Assembly: GCF_014873755.1 (NCBI RefSeq)
Contig: NZ_JADBEG010000001.1
Coordinates: forward strand, 684,501 to 748,500
Reading direction: 5' to 3'
Source of the DNA: Amycolatopsis lexingtonensis
GTDB lineage: Bacteria; Actinomycetota; Actinomycetes; Mycobacteriales; Pseudonocardiaceae
DNA: 64,000 nucleotides
Position 1 is the first letter of the stretch. Every line of letters begins with the position of its first letter. Shown here piece by piece: positions 7,589-40,730 of this stretch. The translations under genes were made by a program, and so were the position numbers. The notes below the pieces were generated by a model that was not told where the DNA came from, searched no databases, and saw only the letters and a program-made list of their open reading frames with translations.

Positions 7589-7620
7589 CCGGGTGCCGTT
7601 CCCTTTCCGGGGGTTGTTTC

Positions 7621-7667
7621 CGACACTGCGTGACATTACTCTGCTCGATATTCGTCACTGCGTGTCG
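7621..7667 (+). promoter_or_regulatory. two operator-like sites in the mftR-mftA gap
   Basis: GACACTGCGTGAC (7622-7634) and GTCACTGCGTGTC (7654-7666) are two copies of a near-palindrome around CAC-TGC-GTG, 32 bp centre to centre (about three helical turns). As a pair they also form an inverted repeat. They are the obvious MftR binding sites, controlling both mftR and mftA. Binding is inferred from position and symmetry. Confidence 0.65.
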
Positions 7668-7697
7668 AAAATAAGTCCCCGTGCCGAAGGAGTCACG

Positions 7698-7799
7698 ATG
7701 ACCGAGAAGATCGCCGAAGAGCCCGTCGAGGAGACCCCGGTCGCCGAAGACCTGCTGGTCGAGGAGGTCTCGATCGACGGGATGTGCGGTGTCTACTGA
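7698..7799 (+). CDS. mftA: mycofactocin precursor peptide MftA
   Basis: A 33-residue ribosomal precursor. The acidic leader (TEKIAEEPVEETPVAED) is followed by the invariant C-terminal core IDGMCGVY. MftC acts on the final Val-Tyr: it decarboxylates the Tyr oxidatively and then crosslinks it to Val. MftE then cuts the modified dipeptide away from the leader. A strong GAAGGAG Shine-Dalgarno at 7686-7692 lies 5 nt before the ATG. The gene overlaps mftB by 11 bases. The core identifies it without ambiguity. Confidence 0.97.
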   Translation: MTEKIAEEPVEETPVAEDLLVEEVSIDGMCGVY

Positions 7800-8070
7800 A
7801 CCGTTCGACCTGGACGCGGCCTGGCGGCTCGACAGCCGGGTCGCGATCCGGCCGGAACGGTTCGGGGCGCTGCTGTACCACTTCGGCACGCGTCGCCTGT
7901 CCTTCCTGAAGAGCCCGGCCCTGCTGGCCGTCGTCCGGTCCCTGGACGCGCAGCCGAGCGCCCGCGCCGCCTGCGCCGGTGCCGGGGTGGGGGCGCCCGA
8001 GCTGCCGCGCTACCGCGCCGCGCTGGCCGCACTGGCCGAGTCGCGGATGATCCAGCCGAGGAGTCTCTGA
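7789..8070 (+). CDS. mftB: mycofactocin chaperone MftB (RiPP recognition element)
   Basis: A 93-residue protein with a PqqD-like RRE fold. It binds the MftA leader and presents it to the radical SAM enzyme MftC. Family features seen are the N-terminal WRLDSRVAIRPERFGALLYHF block (as DSRVAIRPERFGALLYHF) and the following TRRLSFLKSPAL, then a helical C-half. The GTG start lies inside the 3' end of mftA, an 11-nt overlap that couples precursor and chaperone translation. Its stop shares one base with the mftC start. Confidence 0.95.
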   Translation: MSTEPFDLDAAWRLDSRVAIRPERFGALLYHFGTRRLSFLKSPALLAVVRSLDAQPSARAACAGAGVGAPELPRYRAALAALAESRMIQPRSL

Positions 8071-9212
8071 TGTCCCTTGTGGACGAATTCCAGTACGGGC
8101 TCGACGCGCCCATCTGCCTCACCTGGGAACTGACCTACGCCTGCAACCTTTCCTGCGTGCACTGCCTTTCCTCCTCCGGACGGCGGGACCCGCGCGAACT
8201 GTCCACAGCGGAGTGCAAGGCGCTGATCGACGAGTTCGAGCGCATGCAGGTCTTCTACGTCAACATCGGCGGCGGCGAGCCGACGGTGCGCCCGGACTTC
8301 TGGGAGCTCGTCGACTACGCCACCGAGCACCACGTCGGCGTCAAGTTCTCCACCAACGGCGTCAAGATCACCCCGGAGGTGGCGCGCCGGCTGGCCGCGA
8401 GCGACTACGTCGACGTCCAGATCTCCCTGGACGGCGCCACCGCCGAGGTCAACGACCACGTCCGCGGCCCCGGCTCCTACGCCACCGCGATCCGCGCCAT
8501 GCGGAACCTGGCGGACGCCGGTTTCGAGAACTTCAAGATCTCCGTGGTGATGACGCGCCACAACGTGAGCCAGCTCGACGCGTTCAAGGCGATCGCCGAC
8601 CGCTACGGCGCCCAGCTGCGGATCACGCGGCTGCGCCCGTCCGGCCGCGGCGCCGACACCTGGGACGAGCTGCACCCGACCGCCGCCCAGCAGCGGGAAC
8701 TCTACGACTGGCTGGTGGCGAAGGGCGAGAACGTCCTCACCGGCGACTCGTTCTTCCACCTGGCCGGCTACGGCGGGGGCGGGCTGCCGGGCCTGAACCT
8801 GTGCGGCGCCGGGCGGGTGGTGTGCCTGGTCGACCCGGTCGGCGACGTCTACGCGTGCCCGTTCGCCATCCACGACACCTTCCTGGCCGGCAACACCCGG
8901 TCCGAGGGCGGCTTCGCGCGCGTCTGGCGCGAGTCCGAGCTGTTCACTTCTCTGCGCAGCCCGCAAAGCGCGGGCGCGTGCACGTCGTGCTCGGCGTTCG
9001 ACGCCTGCCGCGGCGGCTGCATGGCCGCCAAGTTCTTCACCGGGCTGCCGCTGGACGGCCCGGACCCGGAATGCGTCCGCGGCCACGGCGAACTCGCGCT
9101 GGCGGGCGTCACCAGCGTCCCGAAGCCGTCGCTGGACCACTCCCACCGGCGCCGCCCGGTCCCGGTCACCATCGGGATGCGCCGCCCCTGCGACGAAAAC
9201 CCGCTGGCCTGA
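8070..9212 (+). CDS. mftC: mycofactocin radical SAM maturase MftC
   Basis: A 380-residue radical SAM/SPASM enzyme. The SAM-cluster motif CxxxCxxC is C25-C29-C32 (CNLSCVHC), followed by the NIGGGEP motif near residue 70. Eight further cysteines lie in the C-terminal third (LCGAG, VVCLVDP, YACPF, ACTSC, DACRGGC, PEC), fitting two auxiliary Fe-S clusters. It catalyses oxidative decarboxylation of the MftA C-terminal Tyr and then Val-Tyr carbon-carbon bond formation, with MftB as partner. It overlaps mftB and mftE by one base each. Confidence 0.97.
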   Translation: MSLVDEFQYGLDAPICLTWELTYACNLSCVHCLSSSGRRDPRELSTAECKALIDEFERMQVFYVNIGGGEPTVRPDFWELVDYATEHHVGVKFSTNGVKITPEVARRLAASDYVDVQISLDGATAEVNDHVRGPGSYATAIRAMRNLADAGFENFKISVVMTRHNVSQLDAFKAIADRYGAQLRITRLRPSGRGADTWDELHPTAAQQRELYDWLVAKGENVLTGDSFFHLAGYGGGGLPGLNLCGAGRVVCLVDPVGDVYACPFAIHDTFLAGNTRSEGGFARVWRESELFTSLRSPQSAGACTSCSAFDACRGGCMAAKFFTGLPLDGPDPECVRGHGELALAGVTSVPKPSLDHSHRRRPVPVTIGMRRPCDENPLA

Positions 9213-9895
9213 TGGTGCGCCTCGCGGACCTGTCCTGGCCGGACGTCGCCGATCGCGCGGCCTCGGGAGCGATCCTGGCGGTCCCGGTCGGCGCGACCGA
9301 GCAGCACGGCCCGCACCTCCCGCTGACGACCGACACCGACATCGCCCTCGAGCTGTGCGACCGGCTGGCCGGGGCCCGCCCGCAAGTCGTGGTGGCCCCG
9401 GCGGTGCCGTACGGCTCGAGCGGCGAGCACGCGGGGTTCGCGGGGACGCTTTCGATCGGCCAGGAGGCGACGGAGTTCTTGCTGCTGGAACTGGGCCGCT
9501 CGGCGGCGGAGACGTTCGGGCGCGTGCTGTTCGTCTCCGCCCACGGCGGCAATACGGGCCCGGTGACCCGCGCGGCGGCCCGGCTGCGGGCGGAGTCGCG
9601 GGACGTTTCGGTGTTCTCGCCGAGCTGGCCGGGGGAGCCGCACGCGGGCCGGGCGGAAACGGCGCTGCAGCTGGCGATGCGGCCGGAAGGTGTCCGGATG
9701 GAGCGGGCGGTGGCGGGGGACCGGAGGCCGATCGGGGAACTGTTGCCGCTGTTGCGGGAGGGCGGGGTGCGCGCGGTCACGACGACCGGCGTGCTCGGCG
9801 ACCCGAGATCGGCGACCGCCGCCGAGGGCGCGGAGTTGCTGGGCGAGCTGACGGCGGCGCTGGTGTCGCATGTGGACGGATGGGGACGGGGATGA
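9212..9895 (+). CDS. mftE: mycofactocin peptidase MftE (creatininase family)
   Basis: A 227-residue creatininase-fold metallopeptidase. Metal-binding motifs are GATEQHGPHLPLTTD near residue 26, SAHGGNTG near residue 108 and PHAGRAET near residue 146. In the known pathway MftE releases the cyclised AHDP dipeptide from the MftC-modified precursor. It directly follows mftC, where Mycobacterium has mftD. It overlaps the following SDR gene by ATGA. Confidence 0.95.
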   Translation: MVRLADLSWPDVADRAASGAILAVPVGATEQHGPHLPLTTDTDIALELCDRLAGARPQVVVAPAVPYGSSGEHAGFAGTLSIGQEATEFLLLELGRSAAETFGRVLFVSAHGGNTGPVTRAAARLRAESRDVSVFSPSWPGEPHAGRAETALQLAMRPEGVRMERAVAGDRRPIGELLPLLREGGVRAVTTTGVLGDPRSATAAEGAELLGELTAALVSHVDGWGRG

Positions 9896-10674
9896 CACGG
9901 ACAGCGCTCGTCACCGGTGCCGCGCGGGGGATCGGGGCCGCCACCGTCCTTCGCCTGGCGCAGCAAGGGTACGCCGTCCTCGCCGTCGACCTGGCCGCCG
10001 ATGATCCCGCCCTGCCCTACCCCCTGGGCACCGAAGCCGAACTCGCCGCCGTTGTCGAAAAGGCGGGCGAGCAAACCGCCCCCTTCATCGCCGACGTCCG
10101 GGACCTCGCAGCAATGCAAGCCGCCGTCGCACAAGCCGAACAGCGCTGGGGCGGCCTCGACGTCGCCATCGCCGCGGCAGGGGTCGTCGCCGGGGGCGTG
10201 CCGCTCTGGGAGGTGCCGGAAGACCAAGAACGGGCGGTCCTGGAGGTCGACCTCCACGGCGTCGTCCACCTCGCCCGCGCCGCCATACCCGCGCTGCTGC
10301 GAAGGCCGCAACCCCGGTCAGGCCGGTTCCTCGCCGTCGCTTCGGCCGCCGCCACGCGGGGGTTGCCGATGCTCGCCGCCTACTGCGCCGCGAAAGCCGG
10401 GGTGGCCGGGCTCGTCCGGGCGCTCGGGGCCGAGCTGGGGGAGACCGGCGTGACCGCCAACGCCGTCAGCCCGGGCTCGACCGACACCCCCATCCTCGCC
10501 GAAAGCGCCCGGCTCTACGCCCTGCCCGACGCCGCCGCCTTCGCCGCGCAGCAGCCGGTCCACCGGCTGCTCGACCCCGATGAAGTCGCCGCCGTGCTGG
10601 CGTTCCTCGCCGGACCGGACAGCGGGGCCGTGACCGGCGCCGTCGTGCCCGTGGACGGAGGGCTGGCCCTGTGA
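9892..10674 (+). CDS. mycofactocin-coupled short-chain dehydrogenase/reductase
   Basis: A 260-residue SDR: TGAARGIG cofactor motif at residues 8-15, AAAG, catalytic YCAAK, and the C-terminal GAVVPVDGG. Between the second beta strand and the DVRD motif there is an insertion of roughly 20 residues beginning PYPLGTEAEL. This insertion marks the mycofactocin-dependent SDR group (TIGR03971-like), in which NAD is held tightly and mycofactocin reoxidises it. It lies inside the maturation operon, ATGA-coupled to mftE and GTGA-coupled to mftF. This suggests it is a dedicated client, perhaps an alcohol dehydrogenase. The substrate is unknown. Confidence 0.9.
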   Translation: MTRTALVTGAARGIGAATVLRLAQQGYAVLAVDLAADDPALPYPLGTEAELAAVVEKAGEQTAPFIADVRDLAAMQAAVAQAEQRWGGLDVAIAAAGVVAGGVPLWEVPEDQERAVLEVDLHGVVHLARAAIPALLRRPQPRSGRFLAVASAAATRGLPMLAAYCAAKAGVAGLVRALGAELGETGVTANAVSPGSTDTPILAESARLYALPDAAAFAAQQPVHRLLDPDEVAAVLAFLAGPDSGAVTGAVVPVDGGLAL

Positions 10675-12080
10675 CGCCCCTGCCACCCGGGTTCCGCGTC
10701 GAACTCGACCGCGACACCAAGCAGCTGACCGCCGACCTCCTCTTCGGCGGCTCCCCGGCCCGCGTCCTGCGGCTGACCGCCGCCGGGCAGGCCGCGTTGC
10801 GGGACCTCGCCGACGCACCCGTCACGTCCGCGGCCACCGGCGCGCTCGCCCGGCACCTCACCGACGCCGGGCTCGCCCACCCCGTGCCGCCCGCACCGGA
10901 CCGGCCCGCGGACCTCACCGTCGTCGTCCCGGTGCTCGGCCGGCCGGGGCCGCTGGCCCGCTGCCTCGCCGGGCTCGGCGACCGGCACCCGGTCCTCGTC
11001 GTCGACGACGGCTCCGCAGACCCCGCCGCCATCGCCGGGGTGGCCGCCGCGCACGGCGCGAAACTCGTGCGCCGGGACGTCAACGGCGGCCCCGGCGTGG
11101 CCCGAAACACCGCGCTGGAACACGTTTCCACCGGGCTGGTGGCCTTTGTGGACAGTGACTGCGTTCCCACGCCCGGCTGGGCGGACGCGCTGGCCGCCCA
11201 CTTCGCCGACCCGCTCGTCGCCGCGGTCGCGCCCCGCGTGCGCGCGCTCGCCCCGGACACCGCCGCCGGCCGGTACACCCGGGCCGCCTCCAGCCTCGAC
11301 CTCGGGGACCGGCCCGCGCGGGTCGCGCCCGGCACGCGGACGTCGTACGTGCCGACCGCCGCGCTCGTCGTCCGCCGGAGCGCACTCACCGAGGTCGGCG
11401 CCTTCGATCCCGCGCTGCGCGTCGGCGAGGACGTCGACCTGGTCTGGCGGCTGCACACGGCCGGGCACCGGATCCGGTACGCCCCGGACGTCACCGTCGC
11501 CCACCACGAACCGGAAAGCTGGCGCGCGCTGCTCGGCAGGCGCGCCCGCTACGGCACGTCCGCCGCGCCGCTGGCGAAGCGGCACCCGGGCGCGCTGGCG
11601 CCGCTGGCACTGCACCCGTGGCCCACCCTCACCGTCGGCGCGCTGCTGGCCGGCCGTCCGCTGCTCGCCGCGGGCGGGTTCGCCGGCGCGGTGGGCGGCA
11701 TGGTCCGCACCCTGCGTGCCCACGACGTCCCGGCCGACGGCGTCGTGCGGGCGATGGCCACCGCCGTCCACCAGACGTGGCTCGGCTGCGGCCGCTACGG
11801 CACCCAGTTCGCCGCGCCGCTGCTCGCCGCCCTGCTGGTCCCGCGGGGGTGGCGCCGCCGCGCCGCCGTCGCGTCCCTGCTGCTCGGCCCGCCGCTGACC
11901 GCGTGGGCCAAGCACAGACCCGGACTCGATCCGGTCCGCTACACCGCGGCCGCGATCGCCGACGACGTCGCGTACGGCGGCGGCGTCTGGGCCGGCTGCC
12001 TGGCCCACCGCACCCTCGAGCCGGTCCGCCCGGCTCTCGTCCGCCGCCCCTTGCGCTTCACCACGAAGGGAACCCGATGA
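10671..12080 (+). CDS. mftF: mycofactocin glycosyltransferase MftF
   Basis: A 469-residue protein. Residues 1-75 form a small N-terminal domain typical of MftF. A GT2 glycosyltransferase domain follows: VVVPVLGRPG, VLVVDDGS, GGPGVARNTAL, then the DSDC metal site and GEDVDLVWR near residue 255. The C-terminal part is hydrophobic and probably membrane-associated (ALAPLALHPWPTLTVGALL region). MftF attaches the oligo-glucose chain to pre-mycofactocin. The GTG start overlaps the SDR stop, and the stop overlaps mftD by ATGA. Confidence 0.94.
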   Translation: MTPLPPGFRVELDRDTKQLTADLLFGGSPARVLRLTAAGQAALRDLADAPVTSAATGALARHLTDAGLAHPVPPAPDRPADLTVVVPVLGRPGPLARCLAGLGDRHPVLVVDDGSADPAAIAGVAAAHGAKLVRRDVNGGPGVARNTALEHVSTGLVAFVDSDCVPTPGWADALAAHFADPLVAAVAPRVRALAPDTAAGRYTRAASSLDLGDRPARVAPGTRTSYVPTAALVVRRSALTEVGAFDPALRVGEDVDLVWRLHTAGHRIRYAPDVTVAHHEPESWRALLGRRARYGTSAAPLAKRHPGALAPLALHPWPTLTVGALLAGRPLLAAGGFAGAVGGMVRTLRAHDVPADGVVRAMATAVHQTWLGCGRYGTQFAAPLLAALLVPRGWRRRAAVASLLLGPPLTAWAKHRPGLDPVRYTAAAIADDVAYGGGVWAGCLAHRTLEPVRPALVRRPLRFTTKGTR

Positions 12081-13270
12081 GCACCTGGTTCGAATCCATC
12101 GCCGAAGCCCAGCGCCGCGCCAAGAAACGGCTGCCCGCGTCGGTCTACTCCGCCCTGATCGCCGGTTCGGAGAAGGGCCTCACGCTGGCCGACAACCTCG
12201 GCGCGTTCGACGAGCTGCGGTTCGCGCCGCGCACGGCGGGCCACCACGCGCAGCGGGAGCTGGGCACGCACGTCCTCGGCCGCGACGTCGCCCTCCCGGT
12301 GCTGATCTCCCCGACCGGCGTGCAGGCCGTGCACCCCGACGGCGAAGTCGCGGTGGCCAGGGCGGCCGCCGCGCGCGGGACGTCGATCGGGCTGTCCTCC
12401 TTCGGCAGCAAGCCGATCGAGGACGTGGTCGCCGCGAACCCGAACACGTACTTCCAGGTCTACTGGACCGGTACGCGCGACGACATCCGCCGCCGTCTCG
12501 ACCGCGCCCGCGCCGCCGGAGCCGTCGGCATCATCCTCACGCTCGACTGGTCGTTCTCGCACAGCCGCGACTGGGGCAGCCCGCACATCCCCGAGCGGCT
12601 GACCCCGCGCGAACTGCTGCGCTTCGCCCCGGAAGGGCTGACCCGCCCGCGCTGGCTCCTGGACTACGTCAAGACGCGGCGGCTGCCCGACTTGAGCGTG
12701 CCGAACATGGCGTCACCGGGCGAAGAAGCACCGACGTTCTTCGGCGCGTACGGCCAGTGGATGCAAACGCCGCCGCCGTCGTGGGAAGACGTGGCCTGGC
12801 TGCGCGCGCAGTGGGACGGGCCGTTCCTGCTCAAGGGCGTGATCCGGGTCGACGAGGCCCGCCGCGCGGTCGACGCCGGCGTCAGCGCGCTCTCGGTGTC
12901 CAACCACGGCGGCAACAACCTCGACGGCACTCCGGCCACGATCCGGGCCCTGCCCGCGATCGCGGACGCGGTCGGCTCGGAGGTCGAAGTCCTGCTGGAC
13001 GGCGGCATCCGCCGCGGCAGCGACGTGGTGAAAGCACTGGCACTCGGGGCCAAGGCGGTCCTGATCGGCCGCGCGTACCTGTGGGGCCTGGCGGCCGGCG
13101 GGCAGGCCGGGGTGGAGAACGTCCTCGACGTGCTGCGCAACGGGATCGACTCGACGCTGCTGGCGCTGGGCAAGAAGAGCGTCCACGAACTCACCCGGGA
13201 GGACGTGCTGGCGCCGGACGGCTTCGCGGCCGAACTCGGCGCCGCGCACGAGCGTGGCCCGGGCTCGTGA
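12077..13270 (+). CDS. mftD: mycofactocin FMN-dependent dehydrogenase MftD
   Basis: A 397-residue lactate/glycolate-oxidase-type FMN enzyme. Signatures are ISPTGVQAVHPDGE, FQVYWTGTR, the active-site SNHGGNNLDG and the phosphate-binding DGGIRRGSDVVKALALGAKAV. MftD oxidatively deaminates AHDP to the alpha-keto-amide pre-mycofactocin, creating the redox centre. It is the last gene here, whereas in mycobacteria it is fourth. No GMC oxidoreductase (mftG) follows. Its stop codon lies in the loop and right arm of a strong hairpin. Confidence 0.95.
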   Translation: MSTWFESIAEAQRRAKKRLPASVYSALIAGSEKGLTLADNLGAFDELRFAPRTAGHHAQRELGTHVLGRDVALPVLISPTGVQAVHPDGEVAVARAAAARGTSIGLSSFGSKPIEDVVAANPNTYFQVYWTGTRDDIRRRLDRARAAGAVGIILTLDWSFSHSRDWGSPHIPERLTPRELLRFAPEGLTRPRWLLDYVKTRRLPDLSVPNMASPGEEAPTFFGAYGQWMQTPPPSWEDVAWLRAQWDGPFLLKGVIRVDEARRAVDAGVSALSVSNHGGNNLDGTPATIRALPAIADAVGSEVEVLLDGGIRRGSDVVKALALGAKAVLIGRAYLWGLAAGGQAGVENVLDVLRNGIDSTLLALGKKSVHELTREDVLAPDGFAAELGAAHERGPGS

Positions 13271-30670: not shown

Positions 30671-30937
30671 GATGCACGGCACGGTTCGACCTTCCCCGCA
30701 GCGGGGAACGGCGGCCGACGCTGCCCCCTCCCGTAGCCAGGCTTTCGGCCGCGCAGGTCTTTTCGCCGGTCGCGGTCTCCGCTTTCGGGTTCCGATGATC
30801 TTTCGCCTGGGTGGTGCGCGGGGTCGCAGCCCGGCACGTCGGCACAGGCCACACCGACCAGCGGCTTCACAGGTACTCGGTGGCGATCGTCCTGGGGAGC
30901 GTGTCGGGGGAGCCCCGCACTTCGAGGTCGCGACCGG

Positions 30938-32464
30938 TCAATGGGGTCTGCCAAACCTTGACGGTCTCCGCCGCACTGTGTCGGCAAGGTGATCGAGCAG
31001 CGTGACGAAGTCCGATTCGATCGAGTCGCAGTCGGCTGCGGACGTGCCGATGAAAGTTCCGCCGATTTTGCCGTACGGCTCGAGTGACGACCAAAGGTGC
31101 GGAATGGTCCCACGACCGGTCCGCTGTTGGAAGCCCACTTTCGGTGCGCTGCGCAACGCGCCGAGAAGAGCAGTGCTGGAAACTCCGGCCCACCTGGACG
31201 AGTGCAGGCTGTCGGTTCCTTTGTAGAAGACTTGCTGCCCCAGTGGATCGACGAAGGTTCCTTCGGCTGTCCAGCTACCTCGGCGCACCGCACTGACCAT
31301 CCGCCGAGGATGGGTGCTGCCGGTTTGGCGGAGGTTGATCTCGACTGCGTCGACTCGTGGAGTTCGCTTCCCGGGGTAGGCGACGAAGTCGACACCGACA
31401 TGGCCGGTCACGCCGAGGCCTGCTAAGTGGTCGAACACCGCGCGCGCATGTTTCCCGACTCTGACGCGGTAAGCGGCGTCCGCCGGGAAACGGCAACCCA
31501 TGAAGTCGCCGGCTGCACCGGTAATCTGGTCGTGGGTCGCCAAGAAGTCGACCAGTGCGCCGCCGCCTCGGTGGAGGTACCCGAGCGCGCTCGGGGATCG
31601 CGATCGACCGGTCGAATCGCCGGGTATAACCTGTTCCGCGACAGCGCCTGTCGTGACGACGTGGCGGAGAAAGTCATCGGTTGCCATCAATGGACTGCAC
31701 GGCCTCAAGGCGTTCGCGATGCATGCCGCCGAAGCCGGTGAAGGCAACAGCGAGGTGTCGACGACCGCGTTTCCGTGGCCGCTGCCGAAGCCGGCATCCA
31801 GCTTGACCATCCAACGCCCCCGGCCGAAGCGGACGCCGAGGTCGTCCAAGGTCGATGCCAGGTCCTGCACAGTTCGATCGAGGTGGTATGACCCAGCTGG
31901 ATGGGGCACGCCGGCGGCTCGGAAGACCTGGCGGCTACCGGACTTGGTCCCCCACTTCAGCAGGTGGGGATCGGTGTCCACCAGATCGACTCCAAGCCGC
32001 TCCGCGAGTTTGGCCATTTGCCGGCTGGATGCGTAACAGGAAAGGCCTTCCACGCGGTGACCCTGGCGCCGGGCCGAATCGAGGGTGGCTCGTAGTCGAT
32101 CAATGACCGCTGGCTGGCCGAGCACCTTCGTGCTGAGATGCGATTCGGACCCGTCCTCCAACTCGACCAAAGCCTGCCTATCAGGGCGTTGATGCTGCTC
32201 TGGCAGAAGGCTGAACAGGTGTGTGACAACGTCCTGACCGATCGGCGGAGCTTGAAGCATGATGATCGCCAGATCATCCTCGGCACCGACGGTGAGACAT
32301 TCCCACAATCCGCGGGATCCGGAGAGCCATCGGCCACGGCCGAAAGCCATTTCTTCGGGGGCGAACTCCTGGGAGGGGCAGGCCACGCGTACACGCAGGT
32401 CGTCGCACCCGGCCAACATCCTGTCGAAGCGTCTTAGCGTCGTAGCCCAATCGGCCCGTCTCAT
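30938..32464 (-). CDS. ATP-grasp peptide/amino-acid ligase, PGM1-like
   Basis: A 508-residue ligase. Residues 1 to about 180 resemble the pre-ATP-grasp region of PGM1-type enzymes (DRMLAGCDDLRVRVACPSQE...). The ATP-grasp core follows: FGRGRWMVKLDAGFGSGHG (ATP-binding loop), VAEQVIPG, then GVTGHVGVDFVAY and DAVEINLRQTGSTHPRRM, with the Mg-binding Glu-x-Asn. Members join a carboxylate to an amine through an acyl phosphate, e.g. in pheganomycin biosynthesis. ATG 32464 was chosen over longer frames for a GGGGGC sequence 7 nt upstream and loss of coding character beyond. Last gene of a six-gene minus-strand operon. Substrates are unknown; supply by the racemase and PLP enzymes is inferred. Confidence 0.75.
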   Translation of the reverse strand: MRRADWATTLRRFDRMLAGCDDLRVRVACPSQEFAPEEMAFGRGRWLSGSRGLWECLTVGAEDDLAIIMLQAPPIGQDVVTHLFSLLPEQHQRPDRQALVELEDGSESHLSTKVLGQPAVIDRLRATLDSARRQGHRVEGLSCYASSRQMAKLAERLGVDLVDTDPHLLKWGTKSGSRQVFRAAGVPHPAGSYHLDRTVQDLASTLDDLGVRFGRGRWMVKLDAGFGSGHGNAVVDTSLLPSPASAACIANALRPCSPLMATDDFLRHVVTTGAVAEQVIPGDSTGRSRSPSALGYLHRGGGALVDFLATHDQITGAAGDFMGCRFPADAAYRVRVGKHARAVFDHLAGLGVTGHVGVDFVAYPGKRTPRVDAVEINLRQTGSTHPRRMVSAVRRGSWTAEGTFVDPLGQQVFYKGTDSLHSSRWAGVSSTALLGALRSAPKVGFQQRTGRGTIPHLWSSLEPYGKIGGTFIGTSAADCDSIESDFVTLLDHLADTVRRRPSRFGRPH

Positions 32465-32481
32465 GCGTTCGCCCCCGGTGG

Positions 32482-33180
32482 TCAGTCGTCTCCGAGCGCC
32501 CAGTCCAGAGCCGCCTCCACGTGGAGCAGCGTCGTGTCGAAGACCGGCAACGGGGAGTTTTCCGTGTCCAGCAGCAATCCGATCTCGGTGCACCCGAGGA
32601 TCACGGCTTCCGCGCCCCTCTTTGCGAGTGAGCTGACGATCTCTTGGTAGGCGACTCTGGAATGATCCAACACTTTCCCGAGGCACAACTCGTTGTAGAT
32701 GACGTCGTGCACGATCCCGCGTTCACGTTCGTCGGGAACCACGACCGTCAAGCCGCGGTTGACTAGCCTGGAACGGTAGAACTCGTGTTCCATCGTGTAC
32801 CGGGTGCCCAGGAGCCCGACGCAGCTGACGCCCGCCTTCTCGAGCGCTTGGGCCGTGCCGTCGGCGATGTGGAGAACGGGTATGGAGACCGCGTCACGAA
32901 GGTTGTCGAACACGCGATGCATCGTGTTGGTGCACAGCACGACGCAGTCCGCGCCGCCTCGTTCCAGGTCGCGGGCGTGGGCGGCCAGATGGGCTCCGGC
33001 CTTGACCCATTCACCCTGTTCTTGCATCTTTTCGATCTCGGCGAAGTCGACCGAAGCCATCAGGCACCGCGCGGAGTGGAGGCCGCCGAGTCTGCGTCGG
33101 ATGCCGCGGTTGAGTTCCTGGTAGTAGATCACGGTTGATTCCCAACTCATTCCACCCAGTAATCCGATATTCTTCATCAT
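32482..33180 (-). CDS. aspartate/glutamate racemase family protein
   Basis: A 232-residue cofactor-independent racemase. The start NIGLLGGMSWEST is typical of the aspartate racemase branch. The two catalytic cysteines are C83 (VLCTNTMH) and C197 (LGCTEIG). A role in making a D-amino acid for the ATP-grasp ligase, 17 bases downstream, is the simplest reading. Substrate may be Asp, Glu or a beta-substituted analogue. Start ATG 33180 (MMKN) with AGGCGG about 8 nt upstream. A longer frame to 33267 would overlap the upstream gene's end. Confidence 0.88.
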   Translation of the reverse strand: MMKNIGLLGGMSWESTVIYYQELNRGIRRRLGGLHSARCLMASVDFAEIEKMQEQGEWVKAGAHLAAHARDLERGGADCVVLCTNTMHRVFDNLRDAVSIPVLHIADGTAQALEKAGVSCVGLLGTRYTMEHEFYRSRLVNRGLTVVVPDERERGIVHDVIYNELCLGKVLDHSRVAYQEIVSSLAKRGAEAVILGCTEIGLLLDTENSPLPVFDTTLLHVEAALDWALGDD

Positions 33181-33193
33181 CGATAGCCGCCTG

Positions 33194-34372
33194 TCATTTG
33201 AGTTGAATAGTCGTGGTCTGCTGAAGATCATCGAAAAAACATCTACTGAGCGTGGACAGTACGTCACTCAATCGAGTGGTGGGCAGCGCGAAATTCAAAC
33301 GCGCGAACCTTGAATGACCTTCGCCGAAGAGGGTACCACGCTGAAGGATGACCTTCGCTTCCGCTTCAAAAGTGGCCAGTGGATCGACGGCGACGTCCGC
33401 TATCTCATTGAGATCGAGCCAGGCGAAGTATGTCGCGTCGGGTGGAACATGTCCCACGGTCGTGGGCCTGAAGGCGGATGTGACGAGTGCTCGGTTTTGT
33501 CGGAGTTGCCGTCGAAATCCGGTCAGCCACGGCTCGCATTCCGTCCATGCAGCAACAGTGGCCTCGATGCCGAGAATCCCGGCGCCGCTTCGCAGGTGCC
33601 ACGGAATCTGCAAGTAGCGCCGATGCAGTGTCGAACTTCCGAAATGCCCGACCGCGCATCGCAAGCCGGGGATGTTGAAACTCTTCGCTGCCGAGGTGAA
33701 CACGATCGTGCGCCCGGCGCTGTTGCCCACGGTGGCGATCGACCGATGCGGCATCTCGTAGGTGAGGTCGTGATGGATCTCGTCGGCGAAGATCACGGCG
33801 TCGTCGACGGCAGCGCGTTCGGCGATGGCTTCCAGCTGTCCGGTCGTGAAAATTCGCCCGGTCGGGTTATGTGGTTGACACAGGATGATGACAGCGACCC
33901 GTTCGGATGAGAGAGGTGGCGACGCCGGTGCGGGTTCTACCGGAACCAGCACGGGCTTCCTGCCCAGGCGTTCGATGGCTGCCACGATCGGGGGGTAAGA
34001 GGGAGTGTGAGTCAAAATGCGCTCTCCCGGCTTGCTGAACTCCAGGATCACGCAACACAGCGCTTGCATCACCTGAGCGCAGATCTCCACGCGTCCTGGA
34101 TCGATTGGGACCCCGAACTTCACGTCCATCCGGTCGGCGAACGTTTCCGCAAGCAGGTGCGGGCCACCGCGGGGTGAGTCGAAATCCGGGTACCCGAGGT
34201 CCGACGCCGCGACCGCGTTAGCCAGTGCCTCGCGAATCGGCTCGGCGACCGCGAAGTCCGCCTCCGCGATGTCCAGCGGCACGAGCCCGGACCGAGTCCG
34301 GCTCCACTTGAGGCTTTTTCTGGTTCGGAGCTGATGCGCATCGAGCGGGACCAGTCCCATGTCGGTGCTCAC
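33194..34372 (-). CDS. PLP-dependent class I/II aminotransferase (PatB/MalY-like)
   Basis: A 392-residue fold-type I PLP enzyme. N-terminal SGLVPLDIAEADFAVAEPI is the MalY/PatB mark. Then LCQPHNPTGR, DEIHHDL with D197 for the pyridine nitrogen, and the Schiff-base lysine K230 in FTSAAKSFNIPGL. Members are C-S beta-lyases or aminotransferases. In a cluster with serine acetyltransferase and a CysK homologue it may act on a beta-substituted alanine. The GTG start overlaps the stop of the acetyltransferase (GTGA). An internal ATG at 34360 is an alternative. Confidence 0.86.
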   Translation of the reverse strand: MSTDMGLVPLDAHQLRTRKSLKWSRTRSGLVPLDIAEADFAVAEPIREALANAVAASDLGYPDFDSPRGGPHLLAETFADRMDVKFGVPIDPGRVEICAQVMQALCCVILEFSKPGERILTHTPSYPPIVAAIERLGRKPVLVPVEPAPASPPLSSERVAVIILCQPHNPTGRIFTTGQLEAIAERAAVDDAVIFADEIHHDLTYEMPHRSIATVGNSAGRTIVFTSAAKSFNIPGLRCAVGHFGSSTLHRRYLQIPWHLRSGAGILGIEATVAAWTECEPWLTGFRRQLRQNRALVTSAFRPTTVGHVPPDATYFAWLDLNEIADVAVDPLATFEAEAKVILQRGTLFGEGHSRFARLNFALPTTRLSDVLSTLSRCFFDDLQQTTTIQLK

Positions 34373-35088
34373 AGCGGAACCGTCGTCTGCGACGCCGCAC
34401 CCTGCTCGACTGTCTGGAGCTTCGTGACCACGCGCACCCTGGATCCGGCCGGGATGCTGGACGTGATGTGCGCGCCTGGATCGATTCGGCAGTCATCGCC
34501 AATGGTGACCGGCCCGAAGATGTAGACGTCCCCCGCGATGACCACACGGTTGCCGATTCTGGGGTGCCGCGGTCGCGAAGGGCTGGTGGGAACACCGATC
34601 TTGCGACCGCCGAGCACGACATTCTGCAGGAAGTAGCAGTCTTCCCCGACCCGGGCGTGTTCGCCGATCACTGTGCCCCATCCGTGGTCGATCACCATCC
34701 GGCGCCCGATCACGGCGGCCGGGTGAATCTCCACCCCGGTGCGGACCTTGGCTTCCTCTGATATCCGCCGGGCTGCGCCGGCGACCCGGCGGTCGACCGG
34801 AAAGTGCTGCTTGCCCGGTAGGGCCAACGAGTGGACCGAGTGGGCGACCCGGTACGCCAAAAGCGCGTGAAAGCTCAGATAGCTGCCGTACACGTAGTTT
34901 GGATCGGTGTGGCCCGCCGCGTCACGCATCGTCAGCGACTGGAGGTCTTCCATGACGGTTGGCACGACCCGCAAGACGGCCTCGCGCACGAGACGCGCCG
35001 GTATTCCCGCGTCGTCCAGAAGGGGAAGGACAGGACCAGTGAGGGCGACGGCGTCAGCTGAGACCCGCATGAGCAGGTGATCACCCAT
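34369..35088 (-). CDS. serine O-acetyltransferase (CysE-like)
   Basis: A 239-residue left-handed beta-helix acetyltransferase. The N-terminal half is helical and the C-terminal half carries hexapeptide repeats: GVEIHPAAVIGRRMVIDHGWGTVIGEHARVG (shown as VIDHGWGTVIGE), VVLGGRK, HPRIGNRVVIAGDVYIFGP and VTIGDDCRIDPGA. The catalytic-type DH pair is in IDHGWG. CysE makes O-acetyl-L-serine, the acceptor substrate of CysK enzymes. This copy overlaps the CysK-like gene by 8 bases and looks pathway-dedicated, not general cysteine synthesis. Confidence 0.9.
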   Translation of the reverse strand: MGDHLLMRVSADAVALTGPVLPLLDDAGIPARLVREAVLRVVPTVMEDLQSLTMRDAAGHTDPNYVYGSYLSFHALLAYRVAHSVHSLALPGKQHFPVDRRVAGAARRISEEAKVRTGVEIHPAAVIGRRMVIDHGWGTVIGEHARVGEDCYFLQNVVLGGRKIGVPTSPSRPRHPRIGNRVVIAGDVYIFGPVTIGDDCRIDPGAHITSSIPAGSRVRVVTKLQTVEQGAASQTTVPL

Positions 35089-35995
35089 AGTCTTCTCCTC
35101 GGTCGAACAGGAAGGTGAGCAGGACGTGGTCGTGGACGTCGCGGTAGACCTCGTCGACCCGGACCAGCGCCGCGTAGTTGGCGAGACTGCTCGGACCGAC
35201 GTCGAAACGGTGGTTACTCATCAGGCGCTGCTTGGCGATGGCCAGGTCGCGTTCCGAGACGGGAATGACTTCGTCGAGTTCGGCGACCGGGAAGAAGGGT
35301 GCTGCTTGGCCTACGGCGATCCCTTGGATCGAGTGCTCCCCGTAGCGACCGGCGCGCAGGTCGCAATGGGGTGGTTCGACGCCAACGGTGCGGACCGCAC
35401 GGAATGTTCTCCTCAGCGCCGTGCTGACACCTCGCATCGTTGCGCCGGTTCCCAGGCCGCTGACCAGGACGACGGTGGCCTCTTCCGGCACGTCGGCCAG
35501 CTGCAGCTGATGCGCGACCTCGGGCCCGGTGAAGGATTCGTGGGTCGCGGGATTCGCCGGATTGCCGAACTGGTTCAGGTAGTGGTAGCGGTCGCGGTCG
35601 GTCGCGAGCAGTTCGGCGACAGCCTCGCCGTTGTCCTGAGCGCCGGGGAAGTCGGTGTCCCGGTCCAATACCGTGGCACCAAGGCGTCGCGCCAGGGATT
35701 TCTTGGCTGCCGAGTAGCCCGAGTCGGTCACCAGGGTCAACGCGTACCCGCGGACCGAGGCTTCCACGGCCAAGCCGACACCGAGGTTGCCGCCGGTGCG
35801 CTCGAGCAGAACCCGGCCGCCGGGGCCACCGACGAACCCGGCCGCCTCGGCGTCATCCACGAGGCAGCGGGCGACTCTGGCCTTGTGGCTGCGGCCGGGG
35901 TGCAGGAACTCGCACTTGAGAAAACGGCCTGGGCTGTCCGGTACCAGGGGGGTGGCGATGGTCGCCTGCTGATTCCCGTTGCGCGAGGTCCGCAT
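35081..35995 (-). CDS. cysteine-synthase-like PLP enzyme (beta-replacement)
   Basis: A 304-residue fold-type II PLP enzyme. The lysine is K38 in LHPGRSHKAR. The substrate loop is ERTGGNLGVG instead of TSGNTG, the phosphate loop is SGLGTGATMRG, and SIQGIAVG lies near the C-terminus. With O-acetylserine from the neighbouring acetyltransferase it would swap acetate for another nucleophile, giving cysteine or a beta-substituted alanine. The altered active-site loop suggests a specialised nucleophile, as in DcsD or SbnA relatives (inference). Its ATG overlaps the NTPase stop in TGATG. Confidence 0.85.
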   Translation of the reverse strand: MRTSRNGNQQATIATPLVPDSPGRFLKCEFLHPGRSHKARVARCLVDDAEAAGFVGGPGGRVLLERTGGNLGVGLAVEASVRGYALTLVTDSGYSAAKKSLARRLGATVLDRDTDFPGAQDNGEAVAELLATDRDRYHYLNQFGNPANPATHESFTGPEVAHQLQLADVPEEATVVLVSGLGTGATMRGVSTALRRTFRAVRTVGVEPPHCDLRAGRYGEHSIQGIAVGQAAPFFPVAELDEVIPVSERDLAIAKQRLMSNHRFDVGPSSLANYAALVRVDEVYRDVHDHVLLTFLFDRGEDYG

Positions 35996-38682
35996 CAGCC
36001 ACCACCGCGCACCGAGTTGAGAATGGCCCTTGCCCGGACGGTGCGAGGATGCCCCTTGCCCAGCAGGCGAACAAAGCCCTCGAGTACGGATTGGCTTTCC
36101 CGCACGGCCTCGTCGACCAGCCCGAGTGCCCGCAGCACGACCGCAAGATTCGATCGGCTGGTCAATGTCGACGGGTGGTCGGGGCCGCGGAGACGGGTGA
36201 ATCCGGTGACGACCGCCTCTTGCTCGACCTTGGCCTTGGTGAGGTGGTTGAGGGAGTAGAGGCTTACGGCCAGGTTCCCGCGGCTCGTCAGCGTTGACGG
36301 GTGATCGGAACCCAGTATCCGGCTGAATCCGTCCACGACCAACTCCTGCTCGATCCTGGCTTCGTCGATCCTGCCGAGTTCGAATAGCAGCGATGCGAGG
36401 TAGTTCCGGCTCGTCAGTGTCGACGGGTGGTCGCCGTCGAAGGTGCGGGTAAAGCCGGCCACGACCTGCCTGTGTTCTTCTTCGGCTTGCTCGTCCAAGC
36501 CGAGTGCGTGAAGCGCGACCGCGTGGTTCGACCGGCAGGTCAGCGTCGTCGGGTGGTCTTTGCCGAGCACCTTCGCGAAGCCTTCGACTGTTTCGCGATG
36601 AGCTTTTTCGGCTTCCTTGAAGTGACCCAGTGCGTTCTGGACGACCGCCAGGTTGGACAGAGCGGTCAGCGTCGTCGGGTTGTCGGGGCCGAGGACGCAA
36701 CTGAAGCCTTCGAACACGGCGGTGTGTAGCTCTTCGGCTTCGGCGAGCCGGTCCGGGGCGTGCAGGACGAGAGTCGGGCTTCCTTTGCTGGTCAGGGCAT
36801 CGGGGTGGTCCGGGCCGAAGATCCTGGTACTGGTGTCCAGTACGGTCCGGTGCTCGGCCTCGGCGTCCTCGACCCTGCCGAGGGCGACCAGCACCGCTGC
36901 GGTATTGGTCACCCCGCGACTTGCCTCTGCGGTGGCCATTCGCAATCGCCGTTCGTAGGCCCTCAACACCCAGCAGTGCTCGGACTCGGCCTCCTCGTAG
37001 AGCCCGAGGTCGTGCAGGACCATCGCGAGGTTGTTCCGGTTTGTCAACGTCGCGGGGTGGTCCGAGCCCAGGGTTCGTGCGCGGACCTCGTGCACGATCC
37101 GGTGCTGTGCCGCCGCATCGTCCAACCGGCCCAGATCGTGCAAGACGAGCGCCAGGTTGTTGCGGCTGGCAAGCGTGCCTGGATTGTCTGGGCCGAGCGC
37201 GTCCAACCGAGCCGCGAGAACCGCGCGGTGCTCTTGTTCGGCTTCGTTCAGTCTCCCCATTATCCGCAACATCGCGGCATAGTGGCCCCAGGCGGCGAGT
37301 GCGGACTCGCTGGAGCTTCCGTGTGTGCCGGCTCGAGTCCCGCGTGCCTTGTCGAAGGCGTCGAGGGCTATTTGGTAACGCGCATGCAGACGTGCGGTGA
37401 TCCCGACCCGCATGATCTCGGCGGTGTCGGCGTTGTCCAGGCAGGCTCGCAGCACGGAGTCGGAGACAGGGCGGGTGGCCGCACGAGTGGTCTCGTCTAC
37501 CAGGTAGTCGAATACCTCGACCATGTCGTCTCCCGGGGCGCCGTCGGGAATGAGCAACGCCGTGGTCTGCCCTTCGGCGACCGCCCAGAGCCAGGCCTCG
37601 TTGACCGGTTCGCCGGCGACGCGCTTGCCGCCGCGAACCGGCAAATACTCTTCGGCGAGCCGGGTGATGAGGGCTCGGGGCAATGGCCCTGTGAGGCCGG
37701 CGCGCCTGCAGTCCACGGCGGCCGCCACCAAGGCGGCGCCGCGCATGTTCTCGCCTCCGTCACGAGCGGCTTTCCACCGTTTCATCAGTTCGGGACCCGC
37801 AGCCAGGTATTCGCCGATGCCGAACGTCTCTGCGTGCTTGAGGGCGTCGGCGATCCGTTCGTCACGCTGGACCCTCGTCCGGGCCCGGTCCTGTTCGGCG
37901 TCGGAAAACATCCTCGGGAGATCGATGCGGTCGGCGAGCGCGAGGGTGTCCAAGATCTCGTGCGTCACCGTTCTCGAGCCGTGGTCGGTGCTGTCGTACT
38001 TGGTGAGTTCGGACGAGCGGATGGTTCCGACGATGAAGCGCCCGCACGTGGCGTCACCGGTCAGCCGGTAGACCGCGTTAGAGGTGAAGCCGTCGTCGCC
38101 GAGAAAGCGTTCCAGATTGTCCAGGAATAGCACCGCGTTACGCATGGTCTCCATTTTTGAGACCGCAGATTCCAGTGCTTTCTTGTCCTGGACAGCTACT
38201 AGGGTGTGATTGCGCAGTTCGGCAGATATGCTTTCGTATGCGGTCCGTGTCTTCCCGGCTGTCGAGTCTCCGGAAATCAACACGAACCCGGGCGTGGCGA
38301 GCAGTTCTCGTAGTTCCGAGTCGATGTCGCGTGGGACGTAGACCGGCTGGGCGTTGGCGGGATTTGTGCCGCCGCGAAGCTTTCGGGACGGGTGTACTCC
38401 GAGTACCGTCGGATCGGTCACCTGGCGGACGGTGGGGAGCTTGCGTCCGCTGATCCGCAGGCAGCCGTTGCGCATGGCCAGATCCTGGGTGTGCCCCCTC
38501 TTCAGCACTTCGAGGAGCGAGCTTCGCCAGTGATCGGCAAAGATTGCGAGGATTGCCGCTGCCGCCGACGAGACTGCCAAGATCACCGGCGTATCGACCT
38601 TGGCCACAGCGAGGGTGGCGGGAAGGGCGACGGCGACCGCGGCCCCCACGGCCAGGATTGCCGGACGTGCGTACTTGGCCAT
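35995..38682 (-). CDS. membrane-anchored P-loop NTPase with TPR array
   Basis: An 895-residue protein. Two hydrophobic helices (about 7-28 and 31-49) anchor the N-terminus. A STAND/AAA-like NTPase follows: Walker A GDSTAGKT 138-145, Walker B VLFLDNLE with D188. From about residue 495 there are nine 42-residue TPR units of the GPDHPSTLTSRSNLAVVLRALG kind (shown as DHPSTLTSRSNLAV) and a partial tenth. Start ATG 38682 with GAAGGTGA 5 nt upstream; a longer frame to 38877 lacks such a site and would bury the helices. It is translationally coupled to the CysK-like gene. It could be a sensor, scaffold or defence-type signalling protein. Its tie to the pathway is positional. Confidence 0.78.
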   Translation of the reverse strand: MAKYARPAILAVGAAVAVALPATLAVAKVDTPVILAVSSAAAAILAIFADHWRSSLLEVLKRGHTQDLAMRNGCLRISGRKLPTVRQVTDPTVLGVHPSRKLRGGTNPANAQPVYVPRDIDSELRELLATPGFVLISGDSTAGKTRTAYESISAELRNHTLVAVQDKKALESAVSKMETMRNAVLFLDNLERFLGDDGFTSNAVYRLTGDATCGRFIVGTIRSSELTKYDSTDHGSRTVTHEILDTLALADRIDLPRMFSDAEQDRARTRVQRDERIADALKHAETFGIGEYLAAGPELMKRWKAARDGGENMRGAALVAAAVDCRRAGLTGPLPRALITRLAEEYLPVRGGKRVAGEPVNEAWLWAVAEGQTTALLIPDGAPGDDMVEVFDYLVDETTRAATRPVSDSVLRACLDNADTAEIMRVGITARLHARYQIALDAFDKARGTRAGTHGSSSESALAAWGHYAAMLRIMGRLNEAEQEHRAVLAARLDALGPDNPGTLASRNNLALVLHDLGRLDDAAAQHRIVHEVRARTLGSDHPATLTNRNNLAMVLHDLGLYEEAESEHCWVLRAYERRLRMATAEASRGVTNTAAVLVALGRVEDAEAEHRTVLDTSTRIFGPDHPDALTSKGSPTLVLHAPDRLAEAEELHTAVFEGFSCVLGPDNPTTLTALSNLAVVQNALGHFKEAEKAHRETVEGFAKVLGKDHPTTLTCRSNHAVALHALGLDEQAEEEHRQVVAGFTRTFDGDHPSTLTSRNYLASLLFELGRIDEARIEQELVVDGFSRILGSDHPSTLTSRGNLAVSLYSLNHLTKAKVEQEAVVTGFTRLRGPDHPSTLTSRSNLAVVLRALGLVDEAVRESQSVLEGFVRLLGKGHPRTVRARAILNSVRGGG
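35998..37200 (-). repeat. tandem 126-bp repeats encoding TPR units
   Basis: Nine full and one partial in-frame units of 126 bp (42 residues), each centred on a DHPxTLTxRxNLA motif. They vary from unit to unit, so they are an old array, not a recent expansion. Confidence 0.8.
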
Positions 38683-39213
38683 CAAGTCACCTTCGACTCG
38701 CATTTGGGATGTCGATCTCGCGTAACCGGCCGGGTGTCTCTGGCTAATTTGTAGGTGGACACTGAGTTCTGGACCGTCTACACTACCAAGATTTTTTATG
38801 TGGTCGAAGTGCGTGGTCGACGATGACCAGCTTTTGTCCATATTTTGTCGATCTGGTGCGAGATGCGCTTCGGCCATCTGCGGACCGCGCCGGTCTAGAT
38901 GACTTCGCCGCGCCGCAAGTTTCCGGTGTTGCGTGGGCGGTCCGTCGGGGAACGTTTCGGTTGTGCGGGCGAAGTTCGTCGATTCAGCGGTAGTTCCTGG
39001 CCTGGTTCGGCGGGTACGCGACCTGTGAGGAGCTCGTATCGACTGCAGTTCCTCTCCATCGTTTTCGGCAAGGCGCTCACTTCGACCGGAGTCAGGAGAA
39101 GGAGTGTCCCGTGGGGGTAATCGATGTCATCGTGCCGAGCCATGGTCGGCGACCCGTGGACAACCTCGGAAAATGAGTGGTGCGTGCGCGGAGCTTGGGG
39201 CTAGCTTGCTGCC
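38683..39213. other. mostly non-coding region upstream of the NTPase operon
   Basis: This 531-base stretch holds the promoter region of the minus-strand operon (an AT-rich tract TTTTTTATG near 38790) and one small possible gene on the minus strand (38895-39143). No clear hairpin or RNA gene is seen. Confidence 0.5.
38895..39143 (-). CDS. possible small hypothetical protein (82 aa)
   Basis: An ATG-started frame. Its first third looks protein-like (DDIDYPHGTLLLLTPVEVSA), its last third is Pro/Arg-rich. No good Shine-Dalgarno is visible and I do not recognise it. It would lie upstream of, and in line with, the NTPase operon. It may be spurious. Confidence 0.3.
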   Translation of the reverse strand: MARHDDIDYPHGTLLLLTPVEVSALPKTMERNCSRYELLTGRVPAEPGQELPLNRRTSPAQPKRSPTDRPRNTGNLRRGEVI

Positions 39214-40278: not shown

Positions 40279-40484
40279 AGCGCGCGAACCGGAACGGTGA
40301 TATCCTCGTGGTGTCCGGACCACTCGGTTCCTGAATTTTCGCTCCGACGATTCTTCTGCCCGGCGAGATCCACCGACCTCACCGACGGCCGTCGATTTCC
40401 GGCGCCTTCGCCCAGCTTTGCAGCGTGACACCAGAGGCCGCTCCACGCGAGCGTGCGCGTGGACCGATGTGAAGGGGAATGTCC

Positions 40485-40730
40485 ATGAGCGACATCGTTC
40501 TGGCCCAGACGGCCAACATCAACCCCGGCCTGGCGGCCATCGGGTACGGACTCGGCGCGATCGGCCCGGGAATCGGCGTCGGCCTGATTTTCGCGGCCGT
40601 CATCAATGGTACCGCACGGCAGCCGGAAGCGCGCGGGAAACTGCAGACGATGGGTTACTCGACGTTCGTGCTTTCCGAAGTGCTCGCGTTGATCGGCGTC
40701 GTCATCTATTTCATCACGTACTCCAAGTGA
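40485..40730 (+). CDS. orphan F0 ATP synthase subunit c paralogue
   Basis: An 81-residue, two-helix proteolipid. Helix 1 is INPGLAAIGYGLGAIGPGIG, the polar loop is ARQPEARGK (the c-subunit RQP loop), and helix 2 is STFVLSEVLALIGVVIYFI with the proton-carrying E65. It matches actinobacterial AtpE in helix 1 and loop but has a divergent helix 2. No other atp gene is nearby, so this is a second, unlinked copy or a relative with another role. Start ATG 40485 has GAAGGGGA 6 nt upstream; the ATG at 40479 touches that site. Confidence 0.88.
   Translation: MSDIVLAQTANINPGLAAIGYGLGAIGPGIGVGLIFAAVINGTARQPEARGKLQTMGYSTFVLSEVLALIGVVIYFITYSK

Follow-up and report, generated by a model that had tools for sequence, protein, structure and literature searches.

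The window analysed here is a stretch of 64,000 nucleotides at positions 684501-748500 of the 10.74-Mb single-contig genome of Amycolatopsis lexingtonensis (GC content 0.708). It contains an operon of six minus-strand genes for a tetratricopeptide repeat (TPR) protein with an NTPase domain, a CysK-like enzyme, a serine O-acetyltransferase-like enzyme, a PatB/MalY-like enzyme, an amino-acid racemase and an ATP-grasp ligase. The operon lies in a precisely bounded inserted island, and among the readings considered we find it best explained, with somewhat better than even confidence, as a compact, horizontally moving biosynthetic operon that is independent of nonribosomal peptide synthetases (NRPS). 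The features, with the genes in order of transcription, are:

35995-38682, minus strand: TPR-NTPase, 895 amino acids, ATG start, first in transcription order
35081-35995, minus strand: CYSK, CysK-like, 304 amino acids, ATG start, second
34369-35088, minus strand: SAT, serine O-acetyltransferase-like, 239 amino acids, ATG start, third
33194-34372, minus strand: PATB, PatB/MalY-like, 392 amino acids, GTG start, fourth
32482-33180, minus strand: RAC, YgeA-like racemase, 232 amino acids, ATG start, fifth
30938-32464, minus strand: LIG, BesA/PGM1-like ATP-grasp ligase, 508 amino acids, ATG start, sixth
30822-39166, no strand: inserted island of 8,345 bp with the six genes inside and the 3-bp sequence CGG at either end
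38683-39166, minus strand: leader within the island, 484 bp, presumed from its position only to hold the operon promoter

The gene coordinates bear out what a preliminary description of the window, made by a model from the letters, had stated: the genes run in one direction and overlap by 1, 8 and 4 bases at the first three junctions, while 13 and 17 bases separate them at the last two; its enzyme names likewise agree with the family matches of all six proteins. The 8-base overlap of CYSK and SAT is also present in the locus of Nocardia transvalensis (L010), and the operon is not a product of chance, since the same gene order recurs there and in a Catenulispora metagenome-assembled genome (MAG; L011). 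A simple gene caller favoured other starts for TPR-NTPase (38877), RAC (33231) and LIG (32419). The starts used here are chosen, not proven; the earlier ones were retained because relatives align from them (in L010 from residue 4 of TPR-NTPase, 5 of LIG and 1 of RAC).

The unit is wider than the 30938-38682 first assigned to it, the inserted block being 30822-39166. This was seen in a DNA search with 17 kb around the operon against 15 genomes, of which 10, counting that of the window, belong to the same genus. In the two relatives examined across this site (G069, locus L108, and G047, locus L109, both of the same genus), the left flank (to 30821) is continuous with the right flank (from 39167). 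Both relatives have a single copy of the CGG, whereas the window has one copy on each side of the 8,345-bp insertion, a pattern that a short target-site duplication or microhomology could produce. The island has a GC content of 0.642 vs 0.721 and 0.717 in the 20 kb on either side, and the GC content at third codon positions is 0.71-0.82 in its genes vs 0.915-0.985 in seven flanking genes. Among 80 genomes of the genus, LIG was found only in that of the window. Because of the uninterrupted sites, the low GC values and this distribution, acquisition of the operon by horizontal transfer is well supported.

Apart from the six genes the island contains only the 484-bp leader and a 116-bp tail. An 82-residue frame in the leader (38895-39143, minus strand; low gene-caller score of 8) is probably not a gene, and the leader has no significant similarity to the matching upstream regions of L010, L011 or the Parafrankia contig L013. 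No integrase or transposase is among the called genes of the island and no tRNA gene lies in the 64-kb window; a comparison of the island ends for terminal inverted repeats gave weak matches only (E 1.3 or worse). The adjoining genes for a transporter of the MFS type and a TetR regulator belong to the left flank that both uninterrupted relatives have kept and therefore lie outside the unit; the transporter was rejected as a dedicated exporter for this reason.

A scan with the LIG alignment, restricted to one genome per species and to two peptide patterns, gave four loci (L010, L011, L012 and L013). Nocardia transvalensis NBRC 15921 (L010) and the Catenulispora MAG (L011) have all six genes in identical order, with identities to the window proteins of 62% and 56% for TPR-NTPase, 62% and 62% for CYSK, 56% and 58% for SAT, 55% and 52% for PATB, 73% and 74% for RAC and 51% and 51% for LIG, respectively. 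In Parafrankia EUN1f a 4.3-kb contig (L013) carries PATB, RAC and LIG together with the beginning of the TPR gene (46% identity across 160 residues), and a second contig of 5.5 kb (L095) has CYSK-SAT and, on the strand opposite to them, the start of PATB. Since both contigs have at least 200 identical bases of PATB in common, all six genes are present in Parafrankia, in a rearranged, divergent layout. In Actinomadura (L012) LIG lies in a different cluster, in which the remaining five genes have no match.

When the called genes of the window, L010, L011, L012, L095 and L053 (a stretch of a Streptomyces-like genome, see below) were compared all against all (E 1e-10), the shared genes were the six, a pair of M20 peptidases and a few weak pairs, namely two regulator-like pairs between L010 and L053 and a match of L011 to window 1-360. 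The M20 amidohydrolase adjoins the operon in Nocardia (L010:2295-3473) and in Parafrankia (L095:3246-4283), with a mutual identity of 39%, and could be an accessory deacylase or dipeptidase.

The co-inheritance of the genes was followed in protein lists. The LIG clade has 50 members beyond the window (P0002-P0051), after which the score falls from 279 to 193 bits. The CYSK search gave 62 proteins with at least 51% identity; they span 51-69% and are set off by a gap from the next matches at 36-37%, by which CYSK forms a clade of its own as judged from protein identity. With contigs of equal size taken as one and the same contig, 26 of the 50 LIG proteins lie together with a CYSK (22 of 31 for contigs of at least 10 kb), and 17 of 23 proteins of the TPR clade (window included) lie together with a LIG or a CYSK. 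The TPR clade was cut by eye at 50% identity, and the two-domain proteins P0150, P0151 and P0154 were excluded. Some of the absences are search misses; the TPR protein of L010 and the LIG of L011 exist and are missing from the protein lists.

Pairwise distances of CYSK and LIG on 27 contigs correlate with r = 0.93, a value reached by none of 5000 permutations; on 12 contigs with all three proteins the coefficients are 0.93 for CYSK-LIG, 0.96 for CYSK-TPR and 0.95 for LIG-TPR, again with none of 5000 permutations as high. The coefficients were calculated without control for host phylogeny and therefore indicate a shared history, not a direct interaction. The best paralogue of TPR-NTPase in the same genome has 36% identity over residues 12-568 vs the 62% and 56% of the operon orthologues, from which it follows that this gene moves together with those of the enzymes. 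All six genes thus belong to a single unit that is conserved, co-inherited and inserted. The preliminary description had regarded singly scattered homologues as evidence against a pathway; what was found is conserved linkage, with the same order in two further genomes and a rearranged set in a third, and clade members of CYSK, LIG and TPR on contigs of equal size.

A protein of 1157 residues (P0145) from a metagenome contig of 27,460 bases has TPR-NTPase and PATB in one reading frame, as if the intervening stretch had been deleted. It was set aside as proof of an interaction because the join lacks the C-terminus of the TPR protein and the N-terminus of PATB and because no CYSK is listed on a contig of the same size; apparently it arose by deletion or as an artefact of metagenome assembly.

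CYSK is a fold-type II enzyme dependent on pyridoxal phosphate (PLP) and resembles O-acetylserine sulfhydrylases (PF00291, 143.6 bits); with the cysKM model TIGR01136 it scores 155.7 bits, below the cut-off of 344.15. In an alignment of 60 rows (A2) PGRSHK and GGNLG are invariant, the latter preceded by T in at least 90%, and GPSS is exact in three of four loci. Exact motif patterns failed in places, and the motif counts for CYSK, PATB and LIG were read from alignments. SAT has the CysE fold, matches PF00132, aligns to solved serine acetyltransferases and has the motifs RD, EIHP, DHG and RHP in four of four loci. Its score with TIGR01172 is 113.5 bits (cut-off 210.65), a cut-off that is strict, since only 8 of 14 control genomes passed it although all 14 had a match. 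The genome has 20 matches to the PALP family, counting that of the island, and apart from the island SAT nothing CysE-like scores above 43 bits, so that the island SAT is not the spare copy of a strong resident CysE.

With primary cysteine biosynthesis (CysE plus CysK) the pair thus has in common the folds, the PLP lysine and the serine-acetyltransferase motifs; it differs in the scores far below the curated cut-offs, in the separate clade and in its place on an accessory island. Primary cysteine metabolism was rejected on the cut-offs, the clade gap and the distribution of LIG in the genus. The main catalytic motifs are kept and, by these family comparisons, CYSK and SAT are shown not to be clear orthologues of the primary enzymes, an orthology that the preliminary description had held to be fatal to its proposal.

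The operon could also be a transferred sulfur or thiol module, in which cysteine is made by SAT and CYSK, PATB and RAC deal with cysteine or D-cysteine, and LIG forms a thiol of the gamma-glutamyl-cysteine kind or a storage dipeptide. The position of CYSK far below the cysKM cut-off argues against it, as does the asparagine loop, which reads TGGNLG vs TSGNTG in two solved cysteine synthases; moreover, the occurrence in a single one of the 80 genomes would be odd for a basic thiol function, and the genome already has other PALP enzymes. We regard such a module as unlikely.

RAC scores 212.2 bits with TIGR00035, above the cut-off of 93.1, matches PF01177 and has the aspartate/glutamate racemase 5hqt as its best match in the PDB (E 1.1e-76); its two cysteine motifs, CTNTMH and GCTE, are present in four of four loci. 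With the equivalog model NF007569 (PRK10200) it reaches 283.9, below the cut-off of 417. By family RAC would be a cofactor-independent amino-acid racemase of the YgeA type. Orthology to murein metabolism, which was judged on family matches only and would likewise have spoken against the pathway first proposed, is not indicated: RAC is far below the cut-offs of both glutamate racemase models (31.5 and 32.6 bits vs 146.65 and 328).

LIG matches the ATP-grasp family PF24923, which is also listed for 72 of 73 relatives, with 45.1 bits (cut-off 27), and the only relative found in the PDB is BesA (8yi6), an L-propargylglycine--L-glutamate ligase. With the BesA equivalog NF042917 it scores 120.1 bits vs a cut-off of 750, which makes it a relative of BesA and not an orthologue. 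The likeness to BesA and to the PGM1-type ligases of pheganomycin consists in a homologous ATP-grasp part with 438 aligned profile positions and shared motifs; the difference lies in the low score and in the other gene partners. The EIN-R motif of LIG is found in four of four loci. BesA joins glutamate to propargylglycine, and amide formation without NRPS is a further point in common with the step proposed for LIG.

The combination of an O-acetylserine-forming enzyme, a CysK-like enzyme, a racemase and an ATP-grasp enzyme is also the logic of D-cycloserine biosynthesis (dcs), and the O-ureidoserine synthase 3x43 is among the 60 listed of 107 PDB matches of CYSK, though not the closest. LIG might accordingly close a ring as DcsG does to give a D-cycloserine-like cyclic product. 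The likeness noted in the preliminary description holds for the O-acetylserine and ATP-grasp logic and for nothing beyond it: racemase and ligase are of other families, that of RAC being the Asp/Glu type, the solved relative of LIG joins two amino acids, and the PatB-like enzyme and the TPR-NTPase are extra. DcsA and DcsB have no counterpart in the island 30822-39166 (six genes and the 82-residue frame), as had been stated before. No gene for hydroxyurea supply was found in the island, and none is common to the neighbourhoods of L010 and L011, the rest of the genome being outside this search. Membership in the D-cycloserine pathway was rejected on the island content, and a related cyclic product appears very improbable to us.

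PATB matches PF00155 and scores 211.4 bits with TIGR04350, below the cut-off of 340 for C-S lyases of the PatB family. Its PDB relatives include the beta-cystathionase 3fdb and MalY (1d2f), and the PLP lysine K230 and Y126 are kept in the alignment of four of four loci.

The product of the first gene, to which the preliminary description had given no role, turned out to be a co-inherited part of the unit and is, from its predicted architecture, probably a membrane-anchored sensor of the STAND type. Membrane-type helices at the N-terminus are followed by a P-loop NTPase and a TPR superhelix. Pfam TPR families matched; the nSTAND3 score of 19.5 bits is below the cut-off of 27.2, which is exceeded by P0150 (38.3) and P0151 (32.5), two proteins about 45% identical to TPR-NTPase. 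A search with the AlphaFold2 model (pLDDT 83.5) by Foldseek found the STAND-TPR structure 6mfv at rank 7 (E 7.5e-8, 804 columns), with low TM scores of 0.24/0.32 and an rmsd of 26.2. The VIA fold list covered almost only residues 408-895, which leaves room for a fold not listed. TPR-NTPase exceeds the cut-off of NF040586, the TPR protein of the FxSxx-COOH system (309.9 vs 300 bits), but the island lacks a radical SAM enzyme and the best stretch, 431-736, is the TPR part. There is also a likeness to SARP-STAND-TPR regulators, P0253 being a SARP fused to a related NTPase-TPR protein.

A STAND-like protein that is encoded first, overlaps the next gene and is co-inherited with the enzymes, together with the sparse, low-GC and precisely inserted island, would suit a conflict or defence operon, in which the TPR-NTPase senses a phage, a rival or stress and the enzymes make a toxic or signalling amino-acid derivative. 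None of the six proteins matches a PADLOC model at E 0.01, however, and the island is without a nuclease, protease or other direct effector; the TPR protein has as many as 498 relatives at E 1e-20, and one of the 120 listed is the SARP-fused P0253, which fits ordinary regulation. Defence in this form is quite unlikely.

In E. coli the STAND-TPR activator MalT is repressed by the PLP enzyme MalY, and in the island a STAND-TPR-like protein and a MalY-like enzyme are encoded together. The positions by which MalY contacts MalT have been mapped (PMC10427625). In an alignment read by eye, these positions are C181T, D182G, E185E, S218A, N219T and A221G in PATB, A84 being unplaced, so that one of the six positions that could be placed is unchanged. 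Most contact positions are thus altered, and the TPR protein, with its membrane-type helices, gave no match to a DNA-binding domain; membership in the MalT-MalY system was rejected and the pair kept as an analogy only. It is a long shot that a membrane-anchored MalT-like NTPase, checked by its MalY-like partner, switches on the synthesis of a new O-acetylserine-derived D-amino-acid dipeptide for bacterial conflict or signalling; if true, this would be a new class of system, with a sensor of the NLR type controlling a dedicated pathway of small-molecule ligation.

The favoured interpretation, an NRPS-independent pathway, would run as follows. SAT would acetylate L-serine to O-acetylserine, which by family is exactly the substrate class of CYSK, a point that counts for a pathway. 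CYSK would exchange the acetyl group, via the PLP-bound aminoacrylate, for a nucleophile and yield a beta-substituted alanine, upon which, or upon a partner amino acid, PATB could act by C-S cleavage or by chemistry at the alpha-carbon. The contribution of RAC would be a D-amino acid, which in view of its E. coli relative is most likely acidic. LIG would convert a carboxylate with ATP to the acyl phosphate and then join two amino acids or close a ring. The membrane-anchored TPR-NTPase may switch or scaffold the pathway as a sensor of the STAND type. Because of the analogy with BesA and YgeA, the product might, with low confidence, be a dipeptide of a beta-substituted alanine and an acidic, possibly D-configured, amino acid. 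An amino-acid or dipeptide pathway without NRPS, as the preliminary description had proposed, fits best, with homologues that are linked and with CYSK and SAT not clear orthologues of the primary enzymes; product, substrates and order of the steps are proposals.

Several points weigh against such a pathway. PATB has the least secure role, since C-S lyases usually undo the product of O-acetylserine sulfhydrylase and would tend to reverse the CysK-type step. PATB may instead be a racemase, set a thiol free from a precursor or be the partner of the TPR protein as MalY is of MalT. The MalY of L. sakei has both racemase and beta-lyase activity (PMC5845896). The island has no exporter or resistance gene, which is unusual for an antibiotic pathway. 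The LIG motif WGTKSG is present in three of four loci, Parafrankia having LGGKAQ, and GCRFPA is exact in two of four. Of the LIG proteins beyond the window, 24 of 50 lack a CYSK contig of the same size, 15 of these lying on contigs below 10 kb (unpaired share at 10 kb and above, 9 of 31), and 6 of 23 TPR clade members lack a partner.

The rarity of the set, already apparent from the genus, is to be added to these points. In a Streptomyces-like genus 9 of 392 genomes match the LIG alignment and only G547 (566 bits) belongs to the same clade. No LIG clade member was found at E 1e-90 in 301 genomes of another family, a search that had no known positive as control, and no CYSK clade member in 312 genomes, an empty result that without a known positive shows nothing. 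G547 has SAT and LIG as a pair (L053:9201-11776). SAT is the sole other operon gene beside LIG in its 4.3-kb stretch L044, where tblastn found no CYSK, PATB or RAC; gene-to-gene comparison of the 20-kb L053 gave SAT and LIG only, and a search of the genome for the CYSK clade at E 1e-70 was negative. The six may therefore not always be needed together, and the pair suggests that SAT and LIG can act as a core or that G547 carries a remnant. The SAT proteins of G547 and of Parafrankia have a longer C-terminal end.

Across the phylum 42 of 396 genomes match the LIG alignment at E 1e-60, with at most 288 bits apart from the window (734), and in the family of the window 14 of 200 genomes match, the window alone at clade level. 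These matches below the clade are the wider family of PGM1-like ligases. The CYSK survey at E 1e-70 gave a single match, G1347, whose coordinates coincide with those in the L011 genome and which we take to be the same MAG; the genomes listed in this survey and in the CYSK survey of 312 genomes repeat those of the LIG survey of the Streptomyces-like genus and were not counted as independent. None of 8 and 43 pattern matches on viral contigs encodes a relative of LIG or CYSK. Plasmids have no CYSK relative at E 1e-50, and LIG has distant relatives in five plasmid records, with identities of 29 to 33%; a match on a plasmid of Streptantibioticus cattleyicolor, with 29% identity to LIG, we take to be besA.

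The LIG relative of Actinomadura sp. KC216 (L012:3-9000; 45% identity to the window) has as neighbours an aminodeoxychorismate-type synthase, a prephenate-dehydrogenase-like protein (below cut-off), an asparagine-synthase-like protein, a glutathione-synthetase-like ATP-grasp protein and two methyltransferases. The cluster looks like one for a natural product derived from an aromatic amino acid, and a LIG relative amid such typical genes counts for the biosynthetic interpretation of the operon. In L054:7453-11580 and L056:8386-11351 distant relatives of LIG adjoin a protein of 489-490 residues with a methyltransferase domain; that of L054 also adjoins another CysK-like gene, a second case of a ligase paired with a CysK-like enzyme.

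A description of the gene set was not recognised in searches of the open-licence literature of PubMed Central, a negative of little weight since most subscription journals and preprints are outside its coverage; the folds and the ligation logic are known, whereas for the combination and the STAND-like partner these searches gave no precedent. NRPS-independent pathways based on ATP-grasp enzymes are easily overlooked in genome mining. Since the six genes fill one inserted block, a candidate for the minimal set is at hand ahead of experimental work. Should a new amino acid or dipeptide be made, the operon would be a pathway small enough to express, would include a new CysK clade and would link a sensor of the STAND type to small-molecule synthesis.

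Two further observations concern the remainder of the window. A small gene on the plus strand (40479-40730), whose DNA is about 79% similar to another site in the same genome and 89% similar in two relatives, presumably resembles that of ATP synthase subunit c; no other atp gene was recognised nearby. The region 6968-13270 reads by eye like a mycofactocin row, with genes for a TetR regulator, a small binding protein, a radical SAM enzyme, a creatininase-like protein, an SDR, a glycosyltransferase and an FMN dehydrogenase.
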